Below the pieces are notes generated by a model that was given only the letters and a program-made list of their open reading frames with translations, had not been told where the DNA came from and did not search any database. The position numbers and the translations under genes are program-made. Source: Gemmatimonas sp. (GTDB lineage: Bacteria; Gemmatimonadota; Gemmatimonadetes; Gemmatimonadales; Gemmatimonadaceae). From it: DNA of 64,000 nt. Position 1 is the first letter of the stretch; each line of letters starts with the position of its first letter. This document shows positions 17,375 to 35,900 of the stretch, in pieces. The stretch spans positions 558,001 to 622,000 of the forward strand of contig NZ_JAPZSK010000006.1 in NCBI RefSeq assembly GCF_027531815.1, given 5' to 3'.

Positions 17375-17451
17375 ACCATTAGCATGGCGCACGGACCGGC
17401 GAAGGTCCAGACCAACGGTCCGTCCCGTCCCGAAAAACCGGCGTCTCGCTG

Positions 17452-17501
17452 CCCGAAACCCGATGCCCATACCAGATGAGTTTCGGGTTCCGGGTTCGGG
17501 T
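17452..17501. repeat. Small inverted heptad hairpin (TTCGGGT family)
   Basis: On the plus strand TTCGGGT, TCCGGGT and TCGGGT follow one another at 17482-17501. The left arm CCCGAAACCCGA (17452-17463) is complementary to 17483-17494 with one mismatch. It sits in the 152-bp gap between two minus-strand genes, just before the S41 gene. It resembles the arrays at convergent junctions but is much smaller. Confidence 0.6.
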
Positions 17502-17526: not shown

Positions 17527-18015
17527 CTACCCCGCCACCACCGCGGCAACCTGCCTCGCCAGCACCGCCAGACCGGGGGAATGCTGCAGGGCGTCGGCGT
17601 ACAGCCGCTGAAAAGAGTCCCCCTCCGGATCGGCCCGCAACAGGTCGCGGGCACGGTCGAGCAGCGCGCGCCCTTCCTCTTCGCCCAGCGGCGATTTCCG
17701 GTCGGAGGCACGCTCATCGATGAGCAGGACCATCTGCGCCATGGGGCGCAGCCAATCGAACCACGGATCGTTGATGACCAACTGCAGGAAGGCGCTGTTG
17801 TTGGCGATGCGTCCCCGCGCTTTCTCGTAGCGTACGCGTTCGGCTTCAAGCAGGGCGCGGTGCACCTTGAGCAGCAGGGTGCGCGCCACCTCCAATCGCT
17901 CCCGGAGCGCCGGGGAAGCGGACGGCGTTTCCACTGGCAGCGCGCCGTCACCCACGGTGCTGGTGTCGATCGTGGGGGAGGTGCCGGGGTCCGGGGTGCC
18001 GGCCGGTTCGGTCAT
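17527..18015 (-). CDS. Unknown 162-residue cytoplasmic protein
   Basis: The N-terminal 50 residues are low-complexity and proline/threonine-rich; the rest is helical (LRERLEVARTLLLKVHRALLEAERVRYEKARGR ... WFDWLRPMAQMVLLIDERAS). No known domain is recognised with certainty; the pattern recalls small conserved helical proteins of proteobacteria and Gemmatimonadota. ATG 18015 has AGGAG nine bases upstream, so the start is well supported even though the frame is open to 18267. It is divergent from the S9 peptidase gene. Confidence 0.7.
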   Translation of the reverse strand: MTEPAGTPDPGTSPTIDTSTVGDGALPVETPSASPALRERLEVARTLLLKVHRALLEAERVRYEKARGRIANNSAFLQLVINDPWFDWLRPMAQMVLLIDERASDRKSPLGEEEGRALLDRARDLLRADPEGDSFQRLYADALQHSPGLAVLARQVAAVVAG

Positions 18016-18118
18016 GCGACATGCTCCTGCAGGGAATTGGGCGACAAGCGCGGGATCGTGCTGTAAGCTATGTGGGTACCCCGACCCCGTCCCCCCCTCC
18101 GTTTCGAGGCCGTCCTCC

Positions 18119-20782
18119 GTGCCGAAGCCCTCCATTGAGTCCCTGCGCCTGCTCGCCCTCTCGGGGTTGCTGGCGCTCCCGTTTACGGCCACCCGGCCGC
18201 TGGCGGCGCAGAACACCGGTGCCGCGACCAATACGGCCGGCCCCGGCGCGAGCGCCACGAGTGCCAAGGGTGAGCTGATCGCCGACGAAGGCTACGTGAC
18301 GCCCCCCGAGGCCATCACGAAGCTCGTCACGACGCCTCGCGACCGGAACGTGAGCTTCACGAACCCGAGCCCCGGTGCCCGGCAGTACTTCATGCGGCCG
18401 CTCAGTGACGGGCTGCCACAGCTCAGGTATGTGGGGAAGGCACACCACAATCTGGGCGGCTTCCAGGTGGATCACCTCGGCAACCGCGAGCGGGCGCTCA
18501 CCATGCGCAGCAGTGTGGGCTTCGAGGTCACCGAGTGGAGCACAGGCCGCAAGGTCTCGGTGAACGCCCCCGCGGGCGCGCGCGTGGCGGCCCCCACCTG
18601 GTCGCCGGAGGGCAAGGAGATCGCCTTCTTCGCCTTGTACGATGATGCGACGCAGCTGTGGGTGGCTGATGCCGCCACCGGCAAGGCGCGCGCCGTCTCG
18701 CCGCGCACGGTGCTCGCGACGGCGGTGACGGCGCCCGAGTGGACGGCCGACGGCCAGTCGCTGATCACGGTGCTCGTGCCCGATGGCCGCGGCCCCGAAC
18801 CGAAGGAACCGGTCCTCGCGAGCGGGCCCATGGTGCGCGTGAACGAGGGTGCCAAGCTCAAGACACGCACGTACGCCGACCTCGTCATGACGCCGTACGA
18901 GAAGGAACTGCTCGCCTATCACATGAACGGCCAGCTGGCCGTCGTGAACACGAAGACGCGCGCGGTGAAGAAGATCGGCGCCCCCGGATTCATTCGCGGG
19001 ATCGACGCATCGCCCGATGGCCAGTACTTCAAGGTCACGTATGTGGAGAAGCCTTTCTCGTACGTGCTGCAGGTGAACGAGTTCGGTACGCGCGACGTAG
19101 TGCTCGATGCCGCCGGCACCGTGGTGCGCGAGGTGGCGAAGCGCGCCATGCGCACCGGCGAGGAGCCGAGTGATGCTGCAGGCCGTGGCCGCCCGGCGGT
19201 GGACACCAGCAAGCGCGACCTCAAGTGGCACCCCAACGCTCCGGGGCTGCTGTACCTGCAGATCGCGCCGGCCCAGGCACGTCGCAATGGCGCGACCGGT
19301 AACGCCCCCGCGGGCGCTACGCCGGCCGCCCGCGGCGACAGCGCGGCGGCCGGGCGCCGCAATGACCGCGTGATGCACTGGAAGGCTCCGTTCGACTCGA
19401 CGAGCGCCGCGGTGCTCTACGAAACCGCCAATCGCATCACGACCACGCGCTTCAACGATGCCGGCACCATCCTCTTCGTGACCGAACAGGGCACGGGCGG
19501 CACGTTCGAGCAGGCGGTCTTCCTCACCGAGAACAACGCCAAGTACACCGTGGTCACGCCGCGGCGCGGCGCCGATACCACACAGGTGCGTGGCGGCTTC
19601 GGCGGTCGCAACGCCGACGGGCTCGTTACCCGCCCCGGCAAGAAGGGGGCACCGGTGGTGGTGGTGTCCACCGATGGCAAGTTCGTCTTCCGCATCGGCA
19701 CGGCCGCCGACACCGCCAAGGTGCAGAATACCTGGGTGGAGAAGATCGAAATCAAGACGGGGAGTATTGCCCGCCTGTACGAGAGCGACGGCAGCGTGGT
19801 GGAGTCCATCTCGGCGCCGCTCGATGACGATTTCTCCAAGGCCGTGATTCAGCGCGAAAGCGCGAGCATGGTGCCGCAGTCGTACGTGCTGACGCTGACC
19901 GGCAAGGACGCAAAGCAGCTCACGAGCAACGTGGACCTCATGCCGGAGCTGTCGGCGGCGGTGAAGAAGACGGTGATTGCCCGCCGCGCCGATGGATTCC
20001 AGTTCAACGTGAGGGTGACGCTGCCGGCCGGCTACAAGGAGGGCACGCGCCTGCCGGCGATGTTCTGGTTCTATCCGTACGAGTACGAGAACCAGGCCGG
20101 CTACGATCGCGCCGCCGCGCAGAACGCCGCCCGCGAGCGCCGCTTCCCCACGTACGGGCCGCGCTCGCTCGCGTTCCTGGTCACCCAGGGCTACGCCGTC
20201 GTGGAGCCCGACGCGCCCATCTTCGCCAGCGAAGGGCAGCTGCCGAACGACAACTACGTGGTGGACCTGCGCAACAATCTGTCGGCCATCATCGACGCGC
20301 TTGACACCCTCGCCATCATCGACCGCCATCGCCTCGGTCTGGGCGGACACAGCTACGGTGCATTCAGCACGGTGAACGCCATGGTGCACACGCCGTTCTT
20401 CAAGGCCGGTATTGCCGGCGACGGCGCCTACAACCGCACGCTCACCCCGAACGGCTTCCAGAGTGAGCGCCGCGACCTGTGGCAGGGGCGACAGACGTAT
20501 CTGGAGATGTCGCCGTTCCTCTATGCCGACCAGCTGAACGGCGCGCTACTCATGTACCACAGCACCGAAGACCAGAACGTGGGCACCGCCCCGATCAATT
20601 CGGAGCGCCTGTACCACGCCCTGATGGGCCTCGGCAAGACGACATCGCTGTACATGTACCCGTACGAGGACCACGGCCCGATCGCGCGCGAGACGGTGCT
20701 CGACCAGTGGGCCCGCTGGGTCGCGTGGCTGGACAAGTACGTGAAGAACGCCAACCAGCAGAAGGCGCCGAAGGCGATGTAA
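18119..20782 (+). CDS. Secreted S9-family prolyl oligopeptidase-like peptidase
   Basis: About 887 residues. A signal peptide (LRLLALSGLLALPF ... PLAAQ) is followed by a long beta-propeller region (to about residue 600) with WD40-like strands such as WSPEGKEIAFFA and WTADGQSLITVL. The C-terminal alpha/beta-hydrolase domain carries the triad: Ser745 in GGHSYGAF, Asp in STEDQNVGT, His in YEDHGPI. These enzymes cleave short peptides, often after proline or acyl-amino acids. The start is taken as GTG 18119, which gives the leader peptide directly; GAGG lies somewhat far upstream. Confidence 0.86.
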   Translation: MPKPSIESLRLLALSGLLALPFTATRPLAAQNTGAATNTAGPGASATSAKGELIADEGYVTPPEAITKLVTTPRDRNVSFTNPSPGARQYFMRPLSDGLPQLRYVGKAHHNLGGFQVDHLGNRERALTMRSSVGFEVTEWSTGRKVSVNAPAGARVAAPTWSPEGKEIAFFALYDDATQLWVADAATGKARAVSPRTVLATAVTAPEWTADGQSLITVLVPDGRGPEPKEPVLASGPMVRVNEGAKLKTRTYADLVMTPYEKELLAYHMNGQLAVVNTKTRAVKKIGAPGFIRGIDASPDGQYFKVTYVEKPFSYVLQVNEFGTRDVVLDAAGTVVREVAKRAMRTGEEPSDAAGRGRPAVDTSKRDLKWHPNAPGLLYLQIAPAQARRNGATGNAPAGATPAARGDSAAAGRRNDRVMHWKAPFDSTSAAVLYETANRITTTRFNDAGTILFVTEQGTGGTFEQAVFLTENNAKYTVVTPRRGADTTQVRGGFGGRNADGLVTRPGKKGAPVVVVSTDGKFVFRIGTAADTAKVQNTWVEKIEIKTGSIARLYESDGSVVESISAPLDDDFSKAVIQRESASMVPQSYVLTLTGKDAKQLTSNVDLMPELSAAVKKTVIARRADGFQFNVRVTLPAGYKEGTRLPAMFWFYPYEYENQAGYDRAAAQNAARERRFPTYGPRSLAFLVTQGYAVVEPDAPIFASEGQLPNDNYVVDLRNNLSAIIDALDTLAIIDRHRLGLGGHSYGAFSTVNAMVHTPFFKAGIAGDGAYNRTLTPNGFQSERRDLWQGRQTYLEMSPFLYADQLNGALLMYHSTEDQNVGTAPINSERLYHALMGLGKTTSLYMYPYEDHGPIARETVLDQWARWVAWLDKYVKNANQQKAPKAM

Positions 20783-20795
20783 GGGGCGGGAGGGG

Positions 20796-20953
20796 GGGCA
20801 GGGGGCAGGCAGCAGGTAGCAGGGGGCAGGGGGCAGGGAGCAGACGATTCTGCTTCCGGCCCCCTGCTTTCTGCTTCCTGCTTCCTGCTTCCTGCTTCCT
20901 GCTTCCTGCTTCCTGCTTCCTGCTTCCTGCTTCCTGCTTCCTGCTTCCCGCTT
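20796..20953. repeat. Head-to-head heptad array, NNGCAGG then CCTGCTT
   Basis: Seven units of NNGCAGG run from 20796 to 20844 and, after an 18-bp spacer, thirteen units of CCTGCTT run from 20863 to 20953, eleven of them identical. The two halves are reverse complements of the same consensus (CCTGCNN), so the transcript of either strand can form a long imperfect stem. It fills nearly all of the 188-bp gap between the convergent S9 and M28 peptidase genes. Confidence 0.92.
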
Positions 20954-20970
20954 CCTTGATGTGCCTGCTG

Positions 20971-22779
20971 TTACGGCACGATGACCTTCGGCTTTGCCGG
21001 CTTGGTGCCATTCAGCCGCGGGCGCGGGCCGTTGGCCACGTCCACGGCGATGTCGCGAATGTAGTTCGTGATGCGCGCGTAGTGCGGGTAGTCGATCCAC
21101 TCCGGCTCGTCGGTGCGCTGGTGGTAGTCACCATGCAGCCCCGTGAAGAAGAAGGCGATGGGGACACCCTGCTGCGCGTAGCGGAAGTGATCGCTGCGCC
21201 CGTAGATGTTGTTGTAGCCGGCCCAGGCGATGGGTTCGTCCATCTTGTAGTCGAGGGCGAGCGGCCGGGGCTGCTTCGTGTTCACGCGCGCGACGGTCTC
21301 GCCGAGATCCTTCGAATCGAACATGGAGCCGATGACGGCCACGTAGTCGTCGCTCCCTCCAGGCAGGTCCTCGCCACGTCCGCGACCGATCATGTCGATG
21401 TTGAGCTGGGCGACGATGGAGTCGATGGGCACCGTGGGGTGGCGCGTGAAGTGCGCCGCGCCGAGCAGCCCGGCTTCCTCACCGGTGTGCCACACGAAGA
21501 TCAGGGAGCGCTTGGGCTTCACGGCCATGGCCATGACCGCTTCGGCAATCTCGAGCACGCCCATGGAGCCCGACCCGTCGTCGTCGGCCCCGTTGTTGAT
21601 GGAGTCGAGACGCGGGGTGGGGTGGACACGGCGGATGCTGTCCATGTTCACGCGGATCTGCGCCATCTGCTCGGGGCCCAGCGGCTTCATGTCGTTGGCG
21701 AGCAGCAGGCGATTGCGCGCATCGTTGAACGCCTTGAGGGAGTCCTTGTCGACCGGTGTCGTGAAGCCCACGTGATCGTTGTGGGCACCAATGGCGACAT
21801 ACTGCGCCTTGAGGATGGGATCGCTACCGGGAATGATCCCGATGACATTGCGCGCCCAGTCGGTGGGGAGTTCCACGAATTCGAGTGAGGCGGTGACCAC
21901 GCCGCCGCGCGCACCGGGGGCAAGCGCCTCGACAGGCTGCCCCTTGAAGAGCTGCGCGGCGCCCTCACGGGTGAGCCGGAACGCGCCTTGTGGTTGCGCC
22001 GCCGCGAGCTCGCGTCGGAGCAGCCCGATGGAATCCGCCGGTGAGACGGCGCCCGCGCCGGTGGGCGCCGCTCCACGCGGCGGAGCCACCTGCTGCGCCA
22101 CGGTGGGCTCGTTGATGGCTACGCGCTGCGCGGGGGAGAGGTTGTCGAGATCGACAATCGCGACCGCCGCCGCGTCGGCGAAGCGGGAGGGAGGCGGCGT
22201 GAACCCCGGACGCACCGCGAACCCTTGCCCCTGCCCTCCGCGCCCGCCCGGTTGCGGCAGCAGCACGACGAACTTGCCCACCGCCGCGCTTGCAGGGATC
22301 TGCAGGGTGGTATCGCCCTGGGTGCCACCGAACACCACCTCGGCATCGGTCACCGGCCGCGGTGCCCGCAGTCCCGGCACCGCCACCACATGGGTGTTCC
22401 ACGCCATCGGATTGCCGTCGACCGTCACGCGTGAATGTTCCGTGAACTTGCGCAGGTGGAACGGCAGATTCTGGAAGTACGTGCCGTTCACGCCGCCCGG
22501 CACGAGACCAAGTCGCTTGAGTTCAGCAGCGATGAAGTCGGTGCCCTTGCGATTGCCCACCCGCCCCACCTGGCGCCCCTGCATGGAGTCGTCCGCAAAC
22601 TGGTAGAGGCGAATCTGCAGGTCGCGCGGTGTGATCTGCGCCGTGGTGGGCGCGGGCTTGAGCTTCTCGGGATTGCCGAAGCGATTGACCCGCGACGCGC
22701 CCTGCGACGAGGCGGTCGCGGCGAATGCGGGGAGCAGGCACGCACCGAGCGCAATGCGTGAAAGTCGGGGGAATGACAT
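20971..22779 (-). CDS. Secreted M28-family zinc aminopeptidase with PA domain
   Basis: A 602-residue protein with a signal peptide (LSRIALGACLLPAFAATASSQ). Between about 120 and 320 is a protease-associated insertion. The M28 zinc-ligand motifs follow in order: AIGAHNDHVGF (about 331), NGADDDGSGSMG (about 395) and VWHTGEEAGLLGAAHF with the catalytic Glu-Glu pair (about 433), then RSDHFRYAQQGVP near the end. Family members remove N-terminal residues or process peptides outside the cytoplasm. GGAG precedes the ATG. It is divergent from the HEAT-cyclophilin gene. Confidence 0.88.
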   Translation of the reverse strand: MSFPRLSRIALGACLLPAFAATASSQGASRVNRFGNPEKLKPAPTTAQITPRDLQIRLYQFADDSMQGRQVGRVGNRKGTDFIAAELKRLGLVPGGVNGTYFQNLPFHLRKFTEHSRVTVDGNPMAWNTHVVAVPGLRAPRPVTDAEVVFGGTQGDTTLQIPASAAVGKFVVLLPQPGGRGGQGQGFAVRPGFTPPPSRFADAAAVAIVDLDNLSPAQRVAINEPTVAQQVAPPRGAAPTGAGAVSPADSIGLLRRELAAAQPQGAFRLTREGAAQLFKGQPVEALAPGARGGVVTASLEFVELPTDWARNVIGIIPGSDPILKAQYVAIGAHNDHVGFTTPVDKDSLKAFNDARNRLLLANDMKPLGPEQMAQIRVNMDSIRRVHPTPRLDSINNGADDDGSGSMGVLEIAEAVMAMAVKPKRSLIFVWHTGEEAGLLGAAHFTRHPTVPIDSIVAQLNIDMIGRGRGEDLPGGSDDYVAVIGSMFDSKDLGETVARVNTKQPRPLALDYKMDEPIAWAGYNNIYGRSDHFRYAQQGVPIAFFFTGLHGDYHQRTDEPEWIDYPHYARITNYIRDIAVDVANGPRPRLNGTKPAKPKVIVP

Positions 22780-22877
22780 GGGAGTCTCCGGAGGGGTCAG
22801 GGCAGTCCGGGAAAGTTACGCGCGGTCGGCGCGCCGGGCATATTGGCGCAGGCCTTTCTTCCTTCCCGGATATTCCC

Positions 22878-24824
22878 ATGTGGTCATTTGCCTTCCTGCT
22901 GCTCCAGGGTGCCACGCCGGCCCCGCCTTCCCCCACCGCGTACGAGGTACTGCGCGCCGAACATGCGCGCGGGGCCGACATGCACACGTTGCGTGCCGCA
23001 CTCCAGCGGGGAGATACCCTCGTCCAGCGGTTGGCGGTGCGCGCCGTGGGGCGCATGGAGCGCGAGGCGCTGATGGGGGAGCTCATGCCGCTGCTGCAGT
23101 CACCGGCCGCGTCGGTACGCCGCGAGGTGCTGCTGGCGAGCGCGCAGATGCGGGTTGCGGGAATCGGTTGGACCGTGCTGTCGGCCCCACGGCCGGAACC
23201 TGATGCCAGCGTACGCGCTGCCGCGTACGCCACGATGGGGCGGTCGGCACCGCCGACGGCCGAATGGGAGGCCCGTATTGCCGCCGGCCTGCGCGACGAG
23301 GCGTCGGCAGCGAGGCTTGGCGCCGCCCGTGGCCTCGAGGTGTTCTATCGCCGGCATCGTCGCGCCCTGGTGCCCGCTGACTCGGTGACGCGCGCGCTGG
23401 AGCGACTGCAGGAGCCACGCGGCGAGGCAGACAGTGCGCTGCCCTTGCTCGTGGCGCTGGCCCGCCACGCAGCGCTGTTGGCCAGCCCCGCCGGCAGCGT
23501 CCCGTCGGCGTCATGGCTGGCGGCGCTGCGCGCCCACCCGGACCCGCAGGTGCGCCGCGTCGCCGTGCTCGTCCAACCGACTGCCGACGCCCTGCGCGAT
23601 CCGTCGCCGCTCGTGCGCATGGAGATGCTGCGCCCCACGGTGCCGCTCACCACAGCGCAACTGACCACCGCCCTGAGCGATACGGACGATCATGTGCGGC
23701 TGATGGCGATCGACCGTCTCCCGCGCGCCGAGGGCGCGGCCGCCCTGCTGCGCCCGCTGCTGCAGCCGCAGCGCGACTGGCGAACCCGCGCGCATGCGGT
23801 GGCCGCGCTGGTGCGCGTACACGCCGACAGTGCCCGTCCGCACATTGTCCGGCTGGCGCGCGACCCGGTATGGCAGGCGCGCGCGTGGGCAGCGCGGGCG
23901 GCGATGGTGGCGCGTGACAGTGTCACGCTGCGCCTGCTCGCCCGCGACCCCAACCCGAACGTGCAGCTCGAGGCCATCGTGACCGCAGAGGACGCGGTGC
24001 GTGCGCTGGGGCGCGACCATGCCGGCCTCGTGCTCGCCGGTGCCACCTTCCTTGCCAAGGCGGCCGACGGCGGCGCCATGGATGCGCGCCACGCCGATGC
24101 GGCCGCGCGCGCACTCGAACGCATCAGCCGTACGCACCCCGTGACCTGGCGCGACCCGCGGGTCGCGCTGCTGCGCTACGTCGTGCGTTTCCGCGATGTG
24201 CACCCGCCGGTGAGTGGACTGTGGCTGGGCCAGTGGCTGCGCGACGCCGATCCGGAGATGCAGCGGATTGCCGGGGAGGCACTGCCTGGATGGACCACCA
24301 CGGCCAACCCGTACGTGCCGCCGCCGTTTGCGGGCGAGGCGGAGCTGCGGGCGCTGCGTGGCGCCACGGTGGAGATGCGCATTCGGGGCAAGGGACGCAT
24401 GCTGATGGCGCTGCAACCCGACAGTGCCCCCATGGCGGTGGTGTCGTTCGTGCGGCTGGCTGAGCGGGGCGACTTCGCGACGCGCACGCTGCACCGGGTC
24501 GTGCCCAACTTCGTGGTGCAGGGCGGCAGTCCGGGGGCCGACGAATACGATCCGGCCACGTCGTACTTCATGCGCGACGAGGTGGGCGCCAGCAATCGGC
24601 GAGGGACCCTCGGCATCTCCACGCGTGGGCGAGACACCGGCGACGGCCAGATCTACTTCAACCTCATCGACAACGTGCGTCTCGATTTCGATTACACGGT
24701 ATTCGCGTCCGTGGTTGAGGGACTCGAGGTGATGGACCGCATCCAGGAAGGCGACGTGATCGAGTCGGTGCGCGTCGTGCGCACAGCGTCGGCGGCGCGC
24801 CGCAGCACGGGGGGCGTTCGCTGA
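22878..24824 (+). CDS. HEAT-repeat protein fused to a cyclophilin-type peptidyl-prolyl isomerase
   Basis: About 648 residues. A short hydrophobic N-terminus (MWSFAFLLLQGATPAPP) may be a signal peptide. Residues 30-490 are Arg/Ala/Asp-rich helical repeats of the HEAT type (AHAVAALVRVHADSARPHIV, AWAARAAMVARDSVTLRLL). The last 150 residues are a cyclophilin domain with HRVVPNFVVQGGSP, GTLGISTRGRDTGDGQIYFN and DYTVFASVVEGLEVMDRI. Several active-site positions are retained only approximately. It probably assists folding of exported proteins while the HEAT part binds a partner (inference). The stop overlaps the next start by one base. Confidence 0.82.
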   Translation: MWSFAFLLLQGATPAPPSPTAYEVLRAEHARGADMHTLRAALQRGDTLVQRLAVRAVGRMEREALMGELMPLLQSPAASVRREVLLASAQMRVAGIGWTVLSAPRPEPDASVRAAAYATMGRSAPPTAEWEARIAAGLRDEASAARLGAARGLEVFYRRHRRALVPADSVTRALERLQEPRGEADSALPLLVALARHAALLASPAGSVPSASWLAALRAHPDPQVRRVAVLVQPTADALRDPSPLVRMEMLRPTVPLTTAQLTTALSDTDDHVRLMAIDRLPRAEGAAALLRPLLQPQRDWRTRAHAVAALVRVHADSARPHIVRLARDPVWQARAWAARAAMVARDSVTLRLLARDPNPNVQLEAIVTAEDAVRALGRDHAGLVLAGATFLAKAADGGAMDARHADAAARALERISRTHPVTWRDPRVALLRYVVRFRDVHPPVSGLWLGQWLRDADPEMQRIAGEALPGWTTTANPYVPPPFAGEAELRALRGATVEMRIRGKGRMLMALQPDSAPMAVVSFVRLAERGDFATRTLHRVVPNFVVQGGSPGADEYDPATSYFMRDEVGASNRRGTLGISTRGRDTGDGQIYFNLIDNVRLDFDYTVFASVVEGLEVMDRIQEGDVIESVRVVRTASAARRSTGGVR

Positions 24825-27745
24825 TGGTGCGTTTCAGGCGCGGGGCACATATGGCGGCGACGCTGCTCGGGCTGTCGTTGGGGGTGCGCCCCCAGACGAT
24901 CCCCGCTCAGGTGGCACCCACCCCCCGTGAGCAGCCGCCGACCGCTGACTCGCTGCTGGTGGGGGGGCGTCGTCCGGCCGCATCTCGTCTCGGGGTGCTG
25001 GTCTTTCAGCGGGAAGGGCACCTTTTCGCGCAGCGCGCGGGCGAGCCGGCCACGCGCCTCACCGGTGGCAGTGCTTTTCATCGGGACCCGTCGTGGCAGT
25101 ACGACACCCTCTACTGGGCCAGCGATTCGCTTGGGCAGTACGACATCCTGACCAGCGTGGTGAGCCCCGATGGGCGGCAGTTACTTGGTGCCACACGACG
25201 CATCACCACCAGCACGGCGCACGACGTGTTTCCCGTTGCGGCTGGTGGACGCATGCTCTTCCAGCGCGGCCTCGGCAACGAGTCGCGCATCTGGACGATC
25301 GAGGCCGGTAGCGGTACCGAGCGTCGGCTGAGCAAGCGGGAGCAGACGGAGAAGCGCCCGCGTCTCAGTGCCGACGGGTCGGTCACGGCGTACATCGTTC
25401 ACACCGAGAGCACCCGCAGCGTGGTCGTGAACGATCGTGTGGTATACAGCGACGCCAGCATCGAGGACATCGCCCTCTCGCCCGATGGCACGCGTGTGGC
25501 CGTCTCGATGCGCACGGGCGTGGTGATCGTGCCGGCCACCGGGACCAGCTATACCAACCTGTTGTCGCGTCGTCACGGGGAGCTCGATTGGTCGCCCGAT
25601 GGCGCGCTGGTGACGATCGCGGAAATCCGCGACGTGGCGGTGAGCTACAATGGCGACCCCGACCGCGGCGTGGATCGTACCGCGCACGAGCGCGCCGTGC
25701 TGCAGCAGGGGCTCGGCCCGGCGCGCATGATCCGCCTGCCGGCGCCGCTGGCGCCGGATGTCGGACAGATTGCCGTAGCGGGGCCGGTGGCCACCGACCG
25801 AGCAGCGGCCAACGCGGCAGCGTTCGATCGGGTATGGGAGCGCAGTGCGCGTCTCTACTTCGGCGACGACGCGCCTGCGTCGTCACGGGCAGCGTGGCAA
25901 GAGGCGCGGAGCCGTTTCCGTGCACAGGCCATTGCCGCACCCACCGACAGTGCGCGCGACGCCGTGATTCACGCGCTGCTTACCGCGAGACCGCCGCTGC
26001 GAGCCGATGCCACCGGCCGGGCCGCGGTGTCGAGTGCGCACCCGGTGGCCACCGAGGCGGGGCTCGAGATGTTCCGGCGCGGCGGCAACGTGATCGACGC
26101 GGCGGTGGCCGTGAGCTTTGCGCTGGGCGTGGTGGAGCCCGATGCGAGCGGTATTGGCGGCTACGGCGAGATGGTGATTGCGCTCAAGGGCAAGCAGCCC
26201 ACGCTCATCGAGTTCATGAGTCGGGTGCCCGAAGAGGGGGGGCTCTCGAACACGTCGTTGCTGGTGAACGGGCGGTATCCCAGCGACGGGCCAGTGCTCG
26301 TGAATGTGCCGGGCACCGTGGCGGGGATGCATCTCGCCTGGCAGCGGTACGGCAGCCGCACGCTCCCGTGGGCCGCCCTGCTCGAGCCGGCCATTCGCGC
26401 GGCGCGCAACGGATATGCCGTGAGCGATGGACTGGCCACCACGCTGGCCACGGAGCGTGAGCACTTTGCCAAGTACGACGGCAGCCGCGCACTCTTCTTC
26501 CGCAATGGAGAGCCGCTGCAGCGCGGCGACACCATTCGGAACCCCGACCTGGCGTGGGTGCTCGAGCAGATCGCGGCGAAGGGCGCCGACGGCTTCTACA
26601 AGGGCGAGGTGGCCAGCAAGTATGCGGGCGACCTGCGGGCCAAGGGGAACGCCATGAAGGTGAGCGACCTCGCGCGCTACTTCGCCAATGAGCGCGAACC
26701 GGTGTGCGGTACCTACCGCCGCTTTCGGTTGTGCTCGGGGGCGCCGCCGGTGAGCGGGGGCGCCGACCTCGTGGCGCGACTCAACCTGCTCGAACAGTTC
26801 GCCGCGCCGCGCAGCTACGTGAGCAATGCCGCCACACTGCACGCGATGCTCTCCGCCTGGTTCCTCACGCCTTCATCGCGCACCCGCATTGCCGATCCGG
26901 CCATGTGGCCGGTGGACGTGGCCAGCATCGTGGACAAGGACACGGCCCGCGTGCGCTGGCAATGCCACGACGCCGAACGGGCGCTCACGCCGCGTCTGGT
27001 GCGTGGCGACACCTTGGAGTGTCTCAAGCAGCGCGCGGCCGCTCCGGCGCCGGCTGCCGTGCCGGCGCGCAGCGATACCGCCGCCGTGGGTGACGCCAGC
27101 CCGTGCGGCGACGATCACGCACACGAGATGACGGTGTGCCATGCCGCGGGCACCACCGCCTACACGGTGGCCGACGCCGACGGCAATGCCGTGGCGGTGA
27201 CGCAAACGCTGGGGACCTGGGGTGGCAACTTCTACGTGACGCCGGGGCTCGGTTTCCTGAGCAACGACAAGCTCACGAGCTATGGCACCGACCCCACGCA
27301 ATACGGGTCGCGGCTGCCCTTTGCGCGGCACGGCAGCACACTGGCCCCCACCATTGCGTTCGAGGGGTCACGTCCGGTGTTCGCTGTGGGCGCGGCCGGC
27401 AACGCGTGGATCACCAGCGCCGTGTACCAGTCGCTCATTGGCGCGCTCGACTTCGGGCTGGGCGCGCAGGCGGCGCTCGAGTTGCCGCGCTTTCTGCCCG
27501 GCGGCGGCGGCTTTGCGCCCCCCGGCGCGGCGGGGGCCGTGTCGCCGCCCTTCACGCTGCAGCTGGAAGACGGCTTCGCCCCGCACGTCGTGAGCCGCCT
27601 GCGCGCGCTGGGATACGATCTCAGCTTCGTGTCGGCGCGCGGCGAACTGCGCGAGGGCTACGGCGCCGCCATTCGCCTGGGGCGCGGCACCGTGACCGCC
27701 GGCGCCGACCCGCGACGGGCGGGCGCGGCGGGGGCGGTCAAGTAG
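24824..27745 (+). CDS. Beta-propeller protein fused to a gamma-glutamyltranspeptidase-like domain
   Basis: A 973-residue fusion. Residues 50-370 form a TolB/PD40-like propeller (HRDPSWQYDTLYWASD, ALSPDGTRVAVSMRTG, LDWSPDGALVTIAE). Residues 400-970 match gamma-glutamyltranspeptidase, a self-cleaving Ntn hydrolase that removes gamma-glutamyl groups: AVSSAHPVATEAGLEMFRRG, GIGGYGEMVIAL, and TTAYTVADADGNAVAVTQTL with the probable autocleavage Thr777. Differences from the classical enzyme: TTH is TTA, the oxyanion GG is GN in VGAAGNAWI, and the substrate-binding Arg region is changed. It is probably exported, though the leader is atypical. Coupled to the upstream gene (TGATG). Confidence 0.82.
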   Translation: MVRFRRGAHMAATLLGLSLGVRPQTIPAQVAPTPREQPPTADSLLVGGRRPAASRLGVLVFQREGHLFAQRAGEPATRLTGGSAFHRDPSWQYDTLYWASDSLGQYDILTSVVSPDGRQLLGATRRITTSTAHDVFPVAAGGRMLFQRGLGNESRIWTIEAGSGTERRLSKREQTEKRPRLSADGSVTAYIVHTESTRSVVVNDRVVYSDASIEDIALSPDGTRVAVSMRTGVVIVPATGTSYTNLLSRRHGELDWSPDGALVTIAEIRDVAVSYNGDPDRGVDRTAHERAVLQQGLGPARMIRLPAPLAPDVGQIAVAGPVATDRAAANAAAFDRVWERSARLYFGDDAPASSRAAWQEARSRFRAQAIAAPTDSARDAVIHALLTARPPLRADATGRAAVSSAHPVATEAGLEMFRRGGNVIDAAVAVSFALGVVEPDASGIGGYGEMVIALKGKQPTLIEFMSRVPEEGGLSNTSLLVNGRYPSDGPVLVNVPGTVAGMHLAWQRYGSRTLPWAALLEPAIRAARNGYAVSDGLATTLATEREHFAKYDGSRALFFRNGEPLQRGDTIRNPDLAWVLEQIAAKGADGFYKGEVASKYAGDLRAKGNAMKVSDLARYFANEREPVCGTYRRFRLCSGAPPVSGGADLVARLNLLEQFAAPRSYVSNAATLHAMLSAWFLTPSSRTRIADPAMWPVDVASIVDKDTARVRWQCHDAERALTPRLVRGDTLECLKQRAAAPAPAAVPARSDTAAVGDASPCGDDHAHEMTVCHAAGTTAYTVADADGNAVAVTQTLGTWGGNFYVTPGLGFLSNDKLTSYGTDPTQYGSRLPFARHGSTLAPTIAFEGSRPVFAVGAAGNAWITSAVYQSLIGALDFGLGAQAALELPRFLPGGGGFAPPGAAGAVSPPFTLQLEDGFAPHVVSRLRALGYDLSFVSARGELREGYGAAIRLGRGTVTAGADPRRAGAAGAVK

Positions 27746-27751
27746 CCCGCG

Positions 27752-27829
27752 AATCACGACTCACAACTCACGACTCGAACTCACGACCCGTCACTGGTCA
27801 GTTCTGAGTCGTGAGTCCGAGTTGTGAGT
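27752..27829. repeat. Head-to-head heptad array, ACTCACG/CGTGAGT family
   Basis: ACTC (or AATC) cores at 27752, 27759, 27766, 27773 and 27779 are mirrored by GAGT at 27806, 27813, 27819 and 27826, mostly seven bases apart. ACTCACAACTC (27759-27769) pairs perfectly with 27819-27829, and ACTCACGACTC (27766-27776) with 27806-27816. The array fills the 99-bp gap between two convergent genes. The repeat unit is unrelated to the CCTGCNN family, but the design is the same. Confidence 0.88.
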
Positions 27830-27844
27830 AATGGGTTGCGCTAT

Positions 27845-30124
27845 TCAACGCGGCGCCGGCGGCGTCTCGCGGTTCCACACGAATCGCTTGAGGAACACGC
27901 CCATGCGGTCGAAGGTGTCGATCCAGTTGGCGTGCAGCATGCTCTCGTGCAGGTCGTCGGGCACCACCATGAGCTCGTGGTACACGTTGCGTGCGCGCAG
28001 CAGCTGCACCAGCCCTACCGTCTGCGCGAAGTCCACGTTGCGGTCGTCATCGCCGTGCACGAGCAGCACGGGGCTCTTCCACTGGTCGATGGCGCCGATG
28101 GCCGCCGAGCGGAACGCGGAGCTGGTGCTGTCGAGCGAGTAGTCGTAGTGGTGCACACCCGCCATGTCCACGCCGGCCACGAAAATGTCGCTGTTGCGCG
28201 CCAGCGCCTGCGCCGCCAGCAGGCCGCCATACGACAGCCCCCAGATGCCCACGCGCGCGGCGTCCACGTCGGAGCGCTGCTGGAGGTACTTCGCACCGGC
28301 TACCACGTCGAGGTACTCGCTGTTGCCGCGGTCGCGCGCGTTGGGCGCATCGCGGAAGCTCTTGCCGTAGCCAACGCCACGCCGATAGTTGACGGAGAGC
28401 ACCACGTACCCCTGATCGGCGAGCCACTGGTTGGCGGCGTACGACCAGTGATAGAACTGCATGTAGTGGTACGCCGGCAGCATCTGCCGGCGCGGACCGC
28501 CGTGCACGAACACGATGGCCGGCCGCTTTTCGCCGGGCTTGAGGTCGCGCGGCAGGAACAGCTGGTTGCTGATCTCGAGGCCGTCCTCGGCGCGCGTCTT
28601 CACGATCTCCGGCGTTACGTGGGCGCTGGTGGGGAAGTCGCGCGGCAGCGTGGGATAGATGATGCGCGGAGCGCCACCGCCCGCCGGCACCAACGCCACC
28701 GACGCCGGAGTACGGGCACCGAAGTACAGCACCGCCACCTGCTTGCCGCTCGCGAGCGGCTGCGGGTGCGTTTCCACACCGTCGCCGGTGCTGATGCGCA
28801 CCGGGGGCGAACCGCCATCGCTGGGAACGGCCCAGATGTGGCGGCGCTCGATGTCGCCGGCGTTGGTGGTGTAGTACATGGTGCGCCCGCCGTCGCGCGA
28901 CCACGCCACGCTGGTGGCATCTTCGATCAACCCATCGGTGGTGGTGAGGCGCACGGGCGATCCACCCGTGGCGGGTACCGCGTACCAACGCTCCCACTCG
29001 TCTTTCGGCACGTTCACCGGAAAGGCAATGGAGTTGCCCGCCCAGGTCATGTTGGCCAGCGACGTGAACACCGAATCCCCCACGGCATTGTGCCAGACTT
29101 CGCGCGCGGGGATCTGCGCCATTACGAGCGGCGACGTGATGTTTTTCGCCCCGCCCACGTCGGCGACCATGAGCGCAAGGCGGTAGCCGCCCGGCAGCAT
29201 CGAGGTGAAGAACCCGGGCGCGCGCACGAGGTTGCTCTGCCCCTCGGTCACGGCAACGGACGCCGGCGCACCGAAGCCGGTGCCACATCCCACGGCGGGA
29301 TTGGCGTTGCCCGGTGGGGTGCGACGCTGCAGGCCGAACGGGGTGCCCGGCGTGCGGGCAAAGGCGAGGTAACGCCCGTCGGGTGACCAGGTGGGCGCGC
29401 CGTCGCAATCGACGCCGGGGGCCACATACTGCACGGTGCGCGAGGCGACATCGTACACCGTCACGAAGCTGTGGTGCTCACGCTCGCTCACGAAGGCGAT
29501 GCGCTTGCCGTCGGGCGACCAGCGCGGCGCACCATTGCGCCCCCACAGGCGAATGAGGGGCATGCCGCCGGTGTCGGAGACGGCGAGCGGGCGCGCCCGC
29601 GACACGCGCGCGCGGTGGATCTGCCCGTCGCGCGTGAACAGCACCCAACGTCCGTCCGGTGACAGCTCGGGCGACGCGCCCGTGGCCACCCGCCATGCCG
29701 GGCCACCGGCCGTCAGCACGGCCCAGATGGCCCGATCACCACCGGCCGGGTCGTGGTTGGGATTCGCCACCCACCCCCAGCGATTCGGCGCCGAGCCGCG
29801 CACGAACACCACCACGCGCCCGTCGTCGGAGATCTTCACATCGGTGAGATCGATGCCATCATCATCGAGGAACCGGGTGAGCGGCCGTGGCGCGTAATCA
29901 GGGGCCGCCGCCGTGTACACGTTGCGCTGCCCCTTCTCGTACACCATGAACGCGAGGCGATCGGCCTTCTTCGCCGACACGAGAGTGAGCGGCGAGGGTG
30001 GCGACATCCACGGCGCGATGCTCGGCGATGCCGTGACCTGCGCGGTGACCTGCGCGGTCGCTGCCGCACTGGTGAAGGCGAGCCCGAGAAGACCGGCCGC
30101 AAGACGCCGCCCTGTCTGAATCAC
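27845..30124 (-). CDS. Secreted S9-family peptidase (DPP IV/acylaminoacyl-peptidase-like) with propeller
   Basis: About 759 residues. A signal peptide (MIQTGRRLAAGLLGLAFTSAAATAQ) leads into a PD40 beta-propeller (KISDDGRVVVFVRG, WSPDGKRIAFVSERE, WSPDGRYLAFARTP). A C-terminal peptidase domain follows: Ser631 in WGLSYGGLLAA, Asp in VHGDDDRNVDF and His in PDDLHESML. It probably trims oligopeptides in the periplasm. GTG 30124 is chosen because GAGG lies six bases upstream and it opens the signal peptide; the frame extends to 30178 only through a 12-bp tandem repeat. Confidence 0.87.
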   Translation of the reverse strand: MIQTGRRLAAGLLGLAFTSAAATAQVTAQVTASPSIAPWMSPPSPLTLVSAKKADRLAFMVYEKGQRNVYTAAAPDYAPRPLTRFLDDDGIDLTDVKISDDGRVVVFVRGSAPNRWGWVANPNHDPAGGDRAIWAVLTAGGPAWRVATGASPELSPDGRWVLFTRDGQIHRARVSRARPLAVSDTGGMPLIRLWGRNGAPRWSPDGKRIAFVSEREHHSFVTVYDVASRTVQYVAPGVDCDGAPTWSPDGRYLAFARTPGTPFGLQRRTPPGNANPAVGCGTGFGAPASVAVTEGQSNLVRAPGFFTSMLPGGYRLALMVADVGGAKNITSPLVMAQIPAREVWHNAVGDSVFTSLANMTWAGNSIAFPVNVPKDEWERWYAVPATGGSPVRLTTTDGLIEDATSVAWSRDGGRTMYYTTNAGDIERRHIWAVPSDGGSPPVRISTGDGVETHPQPLASGKQVAVLYFGARTPASVALVPAGGGAPRIIYPTLPRDFPTSAHVTPEIVKTRAEDGLEISNQLFLPRDLKPGEKRPAIVFVHGGPRRQMLPAYHYMQFYHWSYAANQWLADQGYVVLSVNYRRGVGYGKSFRDAPNARDRGNSEYLDVVAGAKYLQQRSDVDAARVGIWGLSYGGLLAAQALARNSDIFVAGVDMAGVHHYDYSLDSTSSAFRSAAIGAIDQWKSPVLLVHGDDDRNVDFAQTVGLVQLLRARNVYHELMVVPDDLHESMLHANWIDTFDRMGVFLKRFVWNRETPPAPR

Positions 30125-30138
30125 GCACCACCTCGAAA

Positions 30139-30174
30139 CTGAGGGTGAAGCTGGGAGTGAAGCTGGGAGTGAAG
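30139..30174. repeat. Triple 12-bp tandem repeat in the leader of the S9 gene
   Basis: Three adjacent 12-bp units, CTGAGGGTGAAG once and CTGGGAGTGAAG twice on the plus strand, lie immediately upstream of the ribosome site (GAGG at 30131-30134, minus strand) of the peptidase gene starting at 30124. A unit length of 12 keeps any frame open, so the repeat can also be read as an ASLP-type N-terminal extension. Confidence 0.75.
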
Positions 30175-30204
30175 CCACGCCGCATTCGGGATCACGGCGC
30201 CGCG

Positions 30205-31345: not shown

Positions 31346-32944
31346 TCACGGGGGGGTGGGGCTGTTGGCCGCCCCCGTGCCGCCGAAGGTGTAGAAGGGG
31401 TCGCCCTTCACACCCAGCTCCTTGGCTGGCACCGGCATCTCGCGCGGCGTCCCGGCGAGCAGGCCGTTCGGGACCCGGCGGCGCTGATAGTACGAGACCG
31501 GACCCAGGCCGAGGAGCTCGACCTCCTGCTCGTAGACGAGCTTCGCCACGAGCGAGGCCACGCCTTCTCCGGCCGTCGCGGCGGAGAGGCCACCACGATC
31601 AACGCGCGTCTTGTTGATGAGGGCCGCGGCGTTGGCGAGGTTGCCGCCCGACCGGCGGAGCTCGGCCTCCGCCCACAGCAGATCGTTCTGATGCCGCGAC
31701 ATCACTGGCGCCACGCCGAAGCCCCCGTAGATCCCATTGGGCGACTGCTCACCCGACCGGTCGTAGCGAATGTGGCCGATGTTCGACTGGTGGTACATGC
31801 CACGATCGGGGCGGAAGATCTCCTCGCGCGAATACACGAAGTCGGTCCCGGCCCTGCTGGTCTTGGGATTGGTGCCGAAGTAGCCGGCGAAGTCCTCGTC
31901 GTCGGGACCGAAGGAGCCATCACCGAGACGCCGGTCCGGCGAGTTCGGCTGGCTGTTGCCGCCACTCGGATACGGATGACGCTGTGTCACCGGATCGAGC
32001 AGCGCCCCCACGCGCGTGCTCACACGGCCGCCATCGAACGCATTGAACCAGTAGAGGATCTCGTGGCACCACGAGTTGCAGCCGTCGCCGGTGAAGTTGA
32101 AGTCGAAGGCCGTGCCGGACGAGATGCCTTGCGAGGCGAGCTGCTGCACCTTGTTCCAGTCCACCTGGTCGTTCTCGGCCGCGGACCGCGGGTAATACGC
32201 CAGCGTCATCGCCGCCATCGTCCGTGCGATCTGGGCGATCTGCGTGTTGGTGTATGACGTGCCGTTGGTCCAGCCGGACGGCGTGGTGAAGGTGTTGGCC
32301 GCCGCGAGGGTGGCGGCCCGTTCGAGCGAGGCGACCGCGGCGTCACGCACCTCCTTGCGCGTCTTGTACGCGAGGGTGGCGAGATCGGTGGTTTCGTCGA
32401 TCACGTAGCCCTTGTCGTAGTTGAGCGCGATACCCATGAGGGCGGCCCCGTGCATGAACTGCGCCACGGTCTCGGCGCGCTTGGTGTTGGCGGCGTTGCT
32501 GATGACGAGGTTGTTCTTGCGGACGGCGGTGAGCACATCGACCGCCGAGGAGAGCGTGGAATAGAAGCCCTCCCAGTACCCGATCATGGTAGTGCGACCC
32601 GCCGACGCCAGATCGTTTTGGTAGGCGCGGGAGTTGCGAGTGCCGTCGCCGTCGATCGAACTGTAGAAGTTCATGTTGAAGTTGTTCCACGACGCGCTGT
32701 AGGTCTGCGCCATGGTGACCAGCGGGCCGCCGCCCTCCATACCGTCCCAGGTGTTGAACCAGGAACGCAACGTGCCGCCGGCCACCGCCTCGACGGCGGC
32801 GGGATCGCTGAGGGCACGGCTGGCGTCGGCGGCGTTCGGGTTCTCCACGTCGAGAGAATTGCACGCGGTGAGCAGCACGGCGCCCATCGCCACGCCAACG
32901 GCGTGGCGGATCGAGCAGGCAAACTTCGGATCGAGGGGGCTCAC
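31346..32944 (-). CDS. SusD/RagB-family nutrient-binding outer-membrane lipoprotein
   Basis: A 532-residue lipoprotein (VGVAMGAVLLTAC, Cys28, then NSLDVENPN, typical of SusD-like proteins). The helical TPR-like core and C-terminal SusD region (SRHQNDLLWAEAELRRSGGN, AAALINKTRVDRGGL, YEQEVELLGLGPVSYYQRRR) fit the family. SusD proteins cap a TonB-dependent SusC barrel and capture glycans or peptides at the surface. It starts with GTG, overlapping the SusC stop by four bases (GTGA), so it is translated together with SusC. The substrate cannot be read from sequence; no glycosidase lies next to it. Confidence 0.88.
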   Translation of the reverse strand: MSPLDPKFACSIRHAVGVAMGAVLLTACNSLDVENPNAADASRALSDPAAVEAVAGGTLRSWFNTWDGMEGGGPLVTMAQTYSASWNNFNMNFYSSIDGDGTRNSRAYQNDLASAGRTTMIGYWEGFYSTLSSAVDVLTAVRKNNLVISNAANTKRAETVAQFMHGAALMGIALNYDKGYVIDETTDLATLAYKTRKEVRDAAVASLERAATLAAANTFTTPSGWTNGTSYTNTQIAQIARTMAAMTLAYYPRSAAENDQVDWNKVQQLASQGISSGTAFDFNFTGDGCNSWCHEILYWFNAFDGGRVSTRVGALLDPVTQRHPYPSGGNSQPNSPDRRLGDGSFGPDDEDFAGYFGTNPKTSRAGTDFVYSREEIFRPDRGMYHQSNIGHIRYDRSGEQSPNGIYGGFGVAPVMSRHQNDLLWAEAELRRSGGNLANAAALINKTRVDRGGLSAATAGEGVASLVAKLVYEQEVELLGLGPVSYYQRRRVPNGLLAGTPREMPVPAKELGVKGDPFYTFGGTGAANSPTPP

Positions 32945-35900
32945 AGTCCGAGCTCCAGCATGAACGTGAACGTCTTGAAGATGGGGTACGTGAAGTAGTC
33001 CACGCGGTAGGCGAAGGGATTCGCTCCGCCACCCGACACGTCGGGATCGTACCCGCTGTACTTGGTGCTGGTGAACAGGTTGCGGCCCACGATGCCGAAG
33101 CGGGCCGAGCGATCGGCGCTCATGCCGAAGCGCCGAGTGATGGCCTTGGGCACCTGGTAGTTGACGGCCAGCTCCCGCAGGCGCACGTAGCTGCCATCCT
33201 CGACGAAGTAGGTATTGGCGTCGAAGTTGTTGTAGAAGGTGGCATAGTAGGTGGTGGGCTTCTTCTCCGCCTCGGGCTTGTCGCGCTGGTCGAACGCCGG
33301 ATCACGCTGGTCGAAGAATGGCCACTGACGGGTGTAGTTGTAGATCTGCCCGCCCTGCACCCAATTCACCACCGCCGTCACGGAGAACTGCTTCCAGTTG
33401 AGCTGGGTGTTGAAGTTGAGGTTGAAGTCGGGGTTCACGTCGGCGATCTGGCGGAGCGCGTTGCCGTCAGCGTCGAGGAACTTGATGGGACGCTCGTTGA
33501 GGGTGCGCCACGCGTTCTTGGCCACGTAGTAGCCTTCCTCGTTCAGCACATAGTCGGCGGCGGTGCCTGTGAGCCGCTTCGACGCAATCATGGCGTCGAG
33601 CTGGGTTTGGCTCTGCACCCACGAGCTGCCGTAGACGATGCCGAACGGCTGCCCCGGGGCCAGCCGGAAGATGGTCGTGTTGGCGACCGGGCCCACGAGG
33701 AACGGCGGGACCGCGAGGCTGCGCACCGTCTGACGGGTGCGGTCGCCGGCGACGTTCACCGTCCAGACGAAGTCCTTCCGGGACGCGATAACGGCGCTCA
33801 GCAGCACCTCGTGGGTCTTGCCCTCCAGCGACCCGGCATTGAGCCACTGGTTGCGGAAGCCAGTGGCCGACGAGACCGGCACATTGAGGATCTGGTCGTC
33901 GGTGATCTTGCTGGAGTAGCTGTACTGGAGCTGAAAGTTCTTGGCGAAGGTGAGATCGAAGCCGCCTTCGATTTCGCGCGAGAACGCTGGGCGCAGGTTG
34001 GGATTGCCAAGCGTGATCTTCACCGGGCTGCCGCCCTCGATCGCGAACTGCTCGTACTGCGCATCGAACACGGGGCGCAGGCCGGCCTCCCCGTAGGACG
34101 CGCGCAGCTTGAACTCGTTCACGCCGGGGAGCGAGAGGTCCTCCGACACGCGCCACGCGCCCGACAGGCGCTTGAACAGCCTGGAGCGCTGATCCTCACC
34201 GAACAGCGACGACTGGTCCTGCCGGATCAGGCCGTCGATGATGTACTTGTCCTTGATGTCGAAGGTAGTGATGGCGAAGAAGTTCTGGTTGCGGATGGGC
34301 TGTGAGAACGACCCGGGGATGACCGGATTCTCGGGATCCCGCGACGCCGCCGAGAACTCGGTCACCCGCGGCACGGTGAGCGCCGTGGCGCGCACCGTCG
34401 TCTGCTGGTTCTCCTGATCCTCGTACACCCACGCCAGCCTGGTGGTGTTGGTGAACCACGAGGTGCTCTTCACGGCAGTCAGGGTCGTGCCGAGGTTGTA
34501 GGCGCGGGTGACATTCTCCCGGTTCGACAGGGAACCCTTGCTCACGGTGCCCGTGGAGCCGATGTAACCGAGCGGGACGAGGGACCGGAACGTGCCCGAG
34601 CCGCGGTCGAAGTTGGTGTTGGCCTCGGCCGTGAGCCACGTCGCGGGGCGATAGCGCACCTTGAGGAGCCCCGTGAAGCGGGCCCGGTCGTTGCTGTTCT
34701 GGATGTTCGACCAGTTGTAGAGCGGGTTGCTCACGTTGCCCGACGCCGGCGATTGCCGGATCGCCGCCAGATACGGCGTCCCGTTGGGGTTCTTGTCGTT
34801 CAGGTTGATGTTCGGCTCGAGGAAGCGAAGGCCGAAGAAGGCATCACCGGAACTGTCATCGGCCTGATCGGCGCGCGACTGGCCGTAGAACGCGCCCGTC
34901 TGGAAGTCCAGCTTGGGGTGCAACTCCATGTCGAGGTTGAGGCGGAAGTTCTGGCGGGAGTAGCCGCTCAGCAGGTTCGCGATGCCCTGATCCTTCGCGT
35001 TCTCGAACGAGGCGTTGAAGTTCGAGTTGGCGTTGCGCTGCCCGATGGAGATGTAGTTGGTCATGAACTGTCCGGAGCGGAAGACGTCTCCGAGCTGGTC
35101 GTACACGACCGGGTACGAGTTGTCCGAAATGCGGTCGTCTTCCTGGATGCGGTTGCCATTGGCATCGCGCAGGAACTTGCCGCTCGCGTCCAGCTTGTAG
35201 GGGTGCGAGAAGTTGTTGGGGATCGTCTTGCGGAGATCGTTCGAGCCGAATTCGTTGCGCACGATGATCTGCGTCTGGCCAGTGGCCAGCGAGGCCCCGC
35301 GCTTGGTGAAAATCTGGACCACGCCGTTGGCGGCATCGGAACCGTAGAGCGAGCTGGCGGCGGCGCCCTTGATGACCTCGATGCGCTCGATGTCCTGCGC
35401 GTTGATGTCGGCGAGGGAGAGGCGGCTAATCGTGCCGTCGACAATGATGAGGGGATCCTGCGAGCCGGTGAGGGACGTGGGGCCACGCAGGCGGATACGC
35501 GGCGCCGACCCCGGCTCACCGTTCACGGCGGTGACGCTGGCACCGGCGACGCGGCCGCTGAGCGCGCCAAGCGGGGACGATGCCGGCGCTTCCTTGATCT
35601 GGGCGTTGTTCACCGCGGCCACCGCAAAGGTGGTCTTCTTCTGGGACGTGGCGTCAGACACCCCGGTGGTAACGATGGCCTCGAGGTTGAGGACATCTTT
35701 TTCGAGGTCGAAGTTCTGCTCGAGCCGTCCCGCCGTGAGCGTGACGAGATGCTTCACCGGCCGGTAGCCGATGGTGCGCGCGAGGACGGTCACTTGCTTG
35801 CCGCCAGCGCGGGCGGGATCCACCGTGAAGGTGAAGCGCCCTTGGGCGTCCGTCACACTGCCGACGCCCAGTTCGACGATCCCGACCTGGGCGCCGCCGA

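Follow-up and report, generated by a model that had tools for sequence, protein, structure and literature searches.

What does a gamma-glutamyltransferase (GGT) core act on when it carries a changed active site and stands behind a beta-propeller? This question is raised by a gene in a 64,000-nucleotide stretch of Gemmatimonas sp. DNA (contig NZ_JAPZSK010000006.1, positions 558,001 to 622,000 of the forward strand), referred to here as the window; all coordinates are those of the window. The gene, its parts and its upstream neighbour are listed below, with counts taken from 50 sequences and with residues of E. coli GGT marked EcGGT.

22725..24824, forward strand, HEAT-repeat/cyclophilin gene directly upstream (Pro_isomerase 1e-25, HEAT_2 1.3e-14).
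24824..27745, forward strand, propeller-C1-GGT fusion gene (open reading frame of 973 aa).
24824..24910, forward strand, probable export signal (about residues 1-29), predicted from the sequence, with Met1 or Met10 as possible start.
24953..25750, forward strand, TolB-like beta-propeller (residues ~44-309), placed by PD40 in orthologues and by the TolB fold match of the model.
25646..25678, forward strand, Y275-N-G-D-P-x-R...R285, the best-conserved propeller stretch (7 of the 13 invariant residues of 44-309).
25799..25993, forward strand, Tricorn_C1-like helical segment (residues ~326-390), placed by PF14684 in orthologues and by a profile of the segment.
26018..26959, forward strand, GGT large-subunit part (residues 399-712), placed by Pfam, alignment and fold match.
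26216..26224, forward strand, M465-S466-R467, with M465 in place of EcGGT R114 (Met in 47 sequences, Leu in 3).
26960..27151, forward strand, variable linker preceding the nucleophile, with conserved Cys 714, 733, 761 and 772 and invariant G776.
27152..27742, forward strand, predicted small subunit from nucleophile T777 (TTA); T777 and T778 are each found in 50/50, and residue 779 is Ala in 41 and Ser in 9.
27218..27238, forward strand, W799-G-G-N-F-Y-V805, in place of EcGGT TTFGTGI(V).
27269..27280, forward strand, K816 (EcGGT Q430) to S819 (EcGGT D433); Lys in 50/50 at the first, Ser in 49 and Thr in 1 at the last.
27398..27403, forward strand, G859-N860 oxyanion pair (EcGGT G483-G484); Gly and Asn each in 50/50.

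The Pfam match of the window protein to the GGT family (PF01019) spans residues 415-967 with an E-value of 5.1e-101, and the complete GGT/Ntn core covers residues 399-967, with T777 as the predicted nucleophile. Motifs start at T777 (TTAYTV), 856 (GAAGN) and 466 (SRVPEE). Many orthologues have a short hydrophobic stretch at the N-terminus, and the fusion protein is probably exported. Since the identical fusion recurs in many contigs and genomes, an assembly or frame artefact was ruled out.

A sequence-only reading of this gene had placed a TolB-like propeller in front of the core, and both the orthologues and the structure model bear this out. While the window protein has a single weak PD40 match (22.2 bits against a cut-off of 20.9), PD40 was detected in all 34 aligned orthologues at E ≤ 1. 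A first structure model, from the window protein and 14 orthologues, reached a pLDDT of 59.5; a second, built with the window protein, 13 orthologues and a further 12 GGT-like proteins taken from viral contigs, had a pLDDT of 80.1 and a pTM of 0.65. In the second model the core matched the E. coli GGT precursor (2e0w; Z 46.7, rmsd 2.1, 482 residues aligned), although this fold may be partly imposed by the 12 added proteins. The front part matched TolB (1c5k; Z 24.3, rmsd 2.4, 216 residues aligned) and the propeller matched the designed six-bladed Pizza (Z 23.1). The domain junction and the linker are of low confidence, and pLDDT falls below 50 at residues 272-289, which include the YNGDPxR stretch. 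A viral structure library gave no usable match.

Between propeller and core lies a Tricorn_C1-related segment, an addition to the architecture described earlier. At E ≤ 1, PF14684 (Tricorn_C1) matched 18 of the 34 orthologues, the strongest reaching 1.1e-8 and 35 bits (cut-off 24); the window protein itself gave no direct Pfam match. When eight members were scanned individually, C1 appeared at E ≤ 0.1 in four and passed the Pfam cut-off in one (L060); the match is weak in most fusion members. A profile of the segment derived from the orthologues matched three of the four C1-bearing proteins of the genome: the S41 peptidase at 16187-17470 scored 30 bits and two further proteins scored 23 and 17 bits, while the fourth (L082) scored 2 bits and the remaining frames at most 3 bits in total. 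The S41 peptidase, encoded on the reverse strand 7 kb from the fusion gene, carries Tricorn_C1 by Pfam and has no PD40 match; its C1 is the top match to the fusion profile among the four C1-bearing proteins.

A propeller followed by a C1-like segment suggests that the front half is built like the tricorn-type proteases, with the head swapped for GGT. At the family level, this order is shared with tricorn protease and the tricorn-like S41 peptidases. Tricorn has two propellers. The fusion, in contrast, has one, no match to a PDZ/S41 catalytic core was found in the window protein or the aligned orthologues, and an Ntn hydrolase serves as catalytic head. The S9 enzymes (prolyl oligopeptidase, DPP IV), to which the propeller had earlier been compared, also carry an N-terminal propeller before the catalytic domain, but the fusion has another nucleophile, and the alpha/beta-hydrolase domain of S9 was found neither in the fusion protein nor in the aligned orthologues. 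The closest architectural parallel is tricorn, not S9. No tricorn entry appeared among the best 50 fold matches of the model; as that list is filled by GGT and TolB, the absence says nothing against C1.

Active-site and substrate-site positions were compared in 50 distinct full-length sequences, the window protein included, with identical reading frames counted once. Genes that are cut or split (L018, L022, L025, L027, L061) were left out, as was L054, whose BLAST match stopped at residue 891 and whose sequence is the same as L021 in alignments A1 and A2. Alignment A2 contains 34 of the available sequences, picked for diversity. A script was used to check EcGGT numbering (R114, T409, N411, Q430, D433, S462, S463) against the letters of the chain.

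All 50 sequences keep the equivalents of T391 (T777), T409 (T795) and G483 (G859), in agreement with the earlier proposal that the catalytic Thr is retained. T777 is in register with the Thr of the Bacillus GGTs, and the small subunit aligned without gaps to the B. subtilis and B. licheniformis GGT small chains over residues 777-891. This shows no register shift in the small-subunit part, so that the odd residues there are genuine substitutions. The H393 position is Ala in 41 sequences and Ser in 9, the N411 position is Gly in 50/50, and G484, Q430 and D433 are replaced as listed above. Including the loss of R114 in the large subunit, the three changes pointed out in the sequence-only reading (TTH to TTA, GG to GN, and the substrate-Arg region) recur across the 50 sequences, with TTS in place of TTA in nine. 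The residue preceding the nucleophile (EcGGT Q390) is Gly in every sequence. At the S462 position we found Ser in 47 and Thr in 3 sequences, and at the S463 position Thr in 44, Ser in 4 and Ile in 2. A "shifted" R114 at R467, two residues past the R114 position, was rejected, as this residue corresponds to the second Arg of the RERAP form, as in BlGGT and paralogue L002.

Between the D433 and R459 positions, where E. coli GGT has its lid loop, 50/50 sequences have 15 residues, compared to 25 in E. coli GGT and in paralogues L002 and L004. Paralogues L005 and L006 likewise have 15, and BsGGT and BlGGT are described as being without a lid loop (PMC8062742). Replacement of GG by GN need not disable the oxyanion hole, since this is formed by backbone amides and since the G484A change occurs in an E. 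coli variant whose acylase activity is raised (PMC8062742).

Conservation is highest in the GGT parts, with 78/314 invariant residues in the large and 52/191 in the small subunit, compared to 13/266 in the propeller, 4/65 in C1 and 3/64 in the linker (n = 50). The linker varies between 42 and 92 residues in length (between 712 and 777), and its Cys at 714, 733, 761 and 772 are present in 50, 50, 46 and 48 of the 50 sequences, a pattern that would fit an oxidising compartment and perhaps two disulfides. Compared to classical GGT (E. coli, B. subtilis, B. licheniformis; PF01019, MEROPS T03), the fusion has the same Ntn fold, nucleophilic Thr, T409 equivalent, first oxyanion Gly and order of large and small parts. 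It differs in the replaced gamma-Glu site (R114, N411, Q430, D433), in TTA or TTS for TTH, in GN for GG, in the Cys-bearing linker and in the propeller and C1 in front.

The family was found at E ≤ 1e-100 in 67 of 395 sampled genomes of the phylum and in 16 of 138 genera; these are 24/24 genomes of the own genus, 39 from other genera of the family, 2 from the order and 2 from the class. An exact 8-residue pattern search of contigs returned 18 loci, 17 of them Gemmatimonad by title and one titled "bacterium". Of the 733 plasmid records that matched the query, none covered 80% of it in one place, and no whole fusion was found among them. Among the literature matches listed, no title deals with a propeller-GGT fusion.

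We also searched the 395 genomes for DNA encoding WGGxFYV, the block at residues 799-805. It occurred in 63 genomes, once in each, while a reversed control pattern occurred in two. By-eye comparison with the gene matches placed 61 of the 63 inside a fusion-gene interval; the other two (G089 and G258) lie 235 and 99 bases past the C-terminal end of the interval, on the same strand. For G296 and G372, where the gene match begins only at residue 664 or 392, the front half was not seen, probably because of contig ends. Four of the 67 genomes (G294, G302, G352 and G390) have the gene and not the exact pattern. The block was found in no gene known to lack the propeller in the 395 genomes.

In a tree of 32 rows, 14 fusion cores formed one clade with support of 100/100, and the stem leading to it has 1.92 changes per column; of the 17 fusion rows picked, three had dropped out because their names were removed as duplicates. 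The tree neighbours of the clade are classical GGTs that include the paralogues L002 and L004 of the own genome, a placement with support of 91/92, which is below the starred level, and with long branches around it. The genome carries eight GGT-family genes. One of these, L003, is another altered GGT, with 67 residues preceding the nucleophile, TSH at the nucleophile and Gly-Ser at the oxyanion place.

Coupling of the fusion gene to the HEAT-cyclophilin gene, also proposed previously, holds at this locus, where the two genes overlap by TGATG, but not across the family. A HEAT-cyclophilin gene is the same-strand upstream neighbour at 15 of 34 loci within 8 kb, in the own genus and in relatives near genus g8 (15 of 36 loci in a first pass over 6 kb), and at 0 of 19 loci from other genera. 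It was therefore rejected as an obligate partner. Among the clusters listed, none of the 14 largest neighbour clusters is common to the 19 other-genus loci.

Several peptidase genes surround the fusion gene in the window: S9 genes flank it on either side (17867-20782 and 27845-30178), and an M28 gene (20971-22779) and the S41 gene lie nearby. These neighbours weakly favour a peptide substrate.

Other features of the window were also recorded. Between the convergent fusion and S9 genes, positions 27748-27840 contain direct repeats of 13 nt in three copies (AACTCACGACTCG-like) together with long inverted repeats that are imperfect; they may represent a terminator or else a small repeat element. 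Between the S9 and M28 genes lie 7-nt tandem repeats (20794-20956; CTGCTTC in 15 copies, GGGGGCA in 7 copies), and a CCTGC-type array lies at 2794-2872. The region 31346-36021 (reverse strand) encodes a TonB-dependent receptor and an adjoining 532-aa protein that has no Pfam match at 0.001 and, judged by its sequence, looks SusD-like.

Considering these data together, we find it somewhat probable that the fusion protein is an active, self-cleaving, exported Ntn amidohydrolase that has lost gamma-glutamyl recognition, with the propeller-C1 part selecting or gating the substrate. A GGT-superfamily Ntn hydrolase precursor would be exported and would cleave itself at the G776-T777 bond. Once free, T777 would attack an amide, assisted by T795 and by the backbone amides of G859-N860. 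Because R114, N411, Q430 and D433, which grip the gamma-glutamyl group, are exchanged for other residues and there is no lid loop, the accepted acyl group is probably not gamma-glutamyl. The propeller with C1 would most likely select, dock or gate the substrate, probably an amide, such as a peptide, that exceeds glutathione in size. The change of substrate suggested previously gains support from substrate-site positions that are replaced alike in nearly all 50 sequences.

Published work on GGT has precedents for other substrates being reached by changing such residues, and indicates that G484 can be changed without killing the enzyme. BlGGT R109M and R109L lose transpeptidation and keep 4-5% of hydrolysis, and EcGGT D433N loses transpeptidation, keeps 82% of hydrolysis and gains cephalosporin acylase activity, which is raised further with Y444A and G484A (PMC8062742). 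LmbA and Ant6 are GGT homologues that cut a C-C bond (PMC5519988). Other reports count against the favoured reading. Enzymes mutated at D433 alone still hydrolyse gamma-glutamyl substrates, and the name GGT is still used for some extremophile proteins that have Ser at R114 (PMC8062742). Furthermore, three of four BlGGT E398 mutants process poorly, showing that the residue preceding the Thr, which is Gly in the fusion, can matter (PMC8062742).

A rather unlikely alternative, though the one that best survives, is that the core is a small-molecule amidase or acylase and that the propeller only docks to the envelope or to a partner, as TolB does to Pal, with no gate. The propeller is closest to TolB among the fold matches listed and is far less conserved than the core, as a scaffold would be, and HpxW (5hft) is also among the fold matches. 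Class IV cephalosporin acylases, which share the GGT fold, differ from GGT at D433, and it is this activity that E. coli D433N gains (PMC8062742). However, the fusion has Ser or Thr where these acylases have Asn, carries further pocket changes and has a propeller. In addition, the confinement of the altered WGGxFYV block to the propeller family in the 395 genomes suggests that propeller and core cooperate.

It is improbable that the protein is an ordinary gamma-glutamyl enzyme with a tolerant pocket. The GGT Pfam match is far over its cut-off, the S462 and S463 positions are largely Ser or Thr, and R114 and S462/S463 vary in some extremophile GGTs (PMC8062742). Against this, R114, N411, Q430 and D433 are all replaced together, and the window protein scores 307.7 bits with TIGR00066, missing the NCBIfam equivalog cut-off of 357.85. 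Moreover, paralogues L002 and L004 of the same genome keep TTH, Arg, Asp and GG, so ordinary gamma-glutamyl work is likely covered elsewhere.

A pseudoenzyme retained for binding would account for the several altered neighbours of the active site, but we consider it very improbable given that T777, T795 and G859 are found in 50/50 sequences and that the GGT parts are the best conserved. Least probable of all is a GGT fold with other chemistry like that of the C-C-cutting LmbA and Ant6, for which there is superfamily precedent without gamma-glutamyl activity (PMC5519988) and a high-ranking fold match (LmbA2991, Z 40.6, among the best), but the similarity is one of fold, LmbA2991 retains the His two residues past the nucleophile (T-C-H, in TCHLDVV), belongs to actinobacterial biosynthesis (PMC5519988) and has no propeller part in the matched solved chain, and no biosynthetic cluster was noticed among the inspected neighbours of the fusion.

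Returning to the self-cleaving amidohydrolase with a selecting or gating propeller, a more specific form of it can be put forward tentatively. A tricorn-like chassis of propeller and C1 may have had its S41 head exchanged for a self-cleaving Ntn threonine hydrolase. The outcome could be a periplasmic threonine peptidase that is gated by its propeller and has both a new substrate class and a new pocket (K816, W799-GG-F803-Y804, N860). If true, propeller-C1 would be a portable gate that can be placed before an unrelated catalytic fold, and the GGT fold would be the source of one more enzyme that does not act on glutathione and has a fixed new pocket. Because of the strong PF01019 match, automatic annotation likely labels such proteins gamma-glutamyltransferase, and the altered residue set provides a simple rule that separates the fusion proteins from that enzyme.
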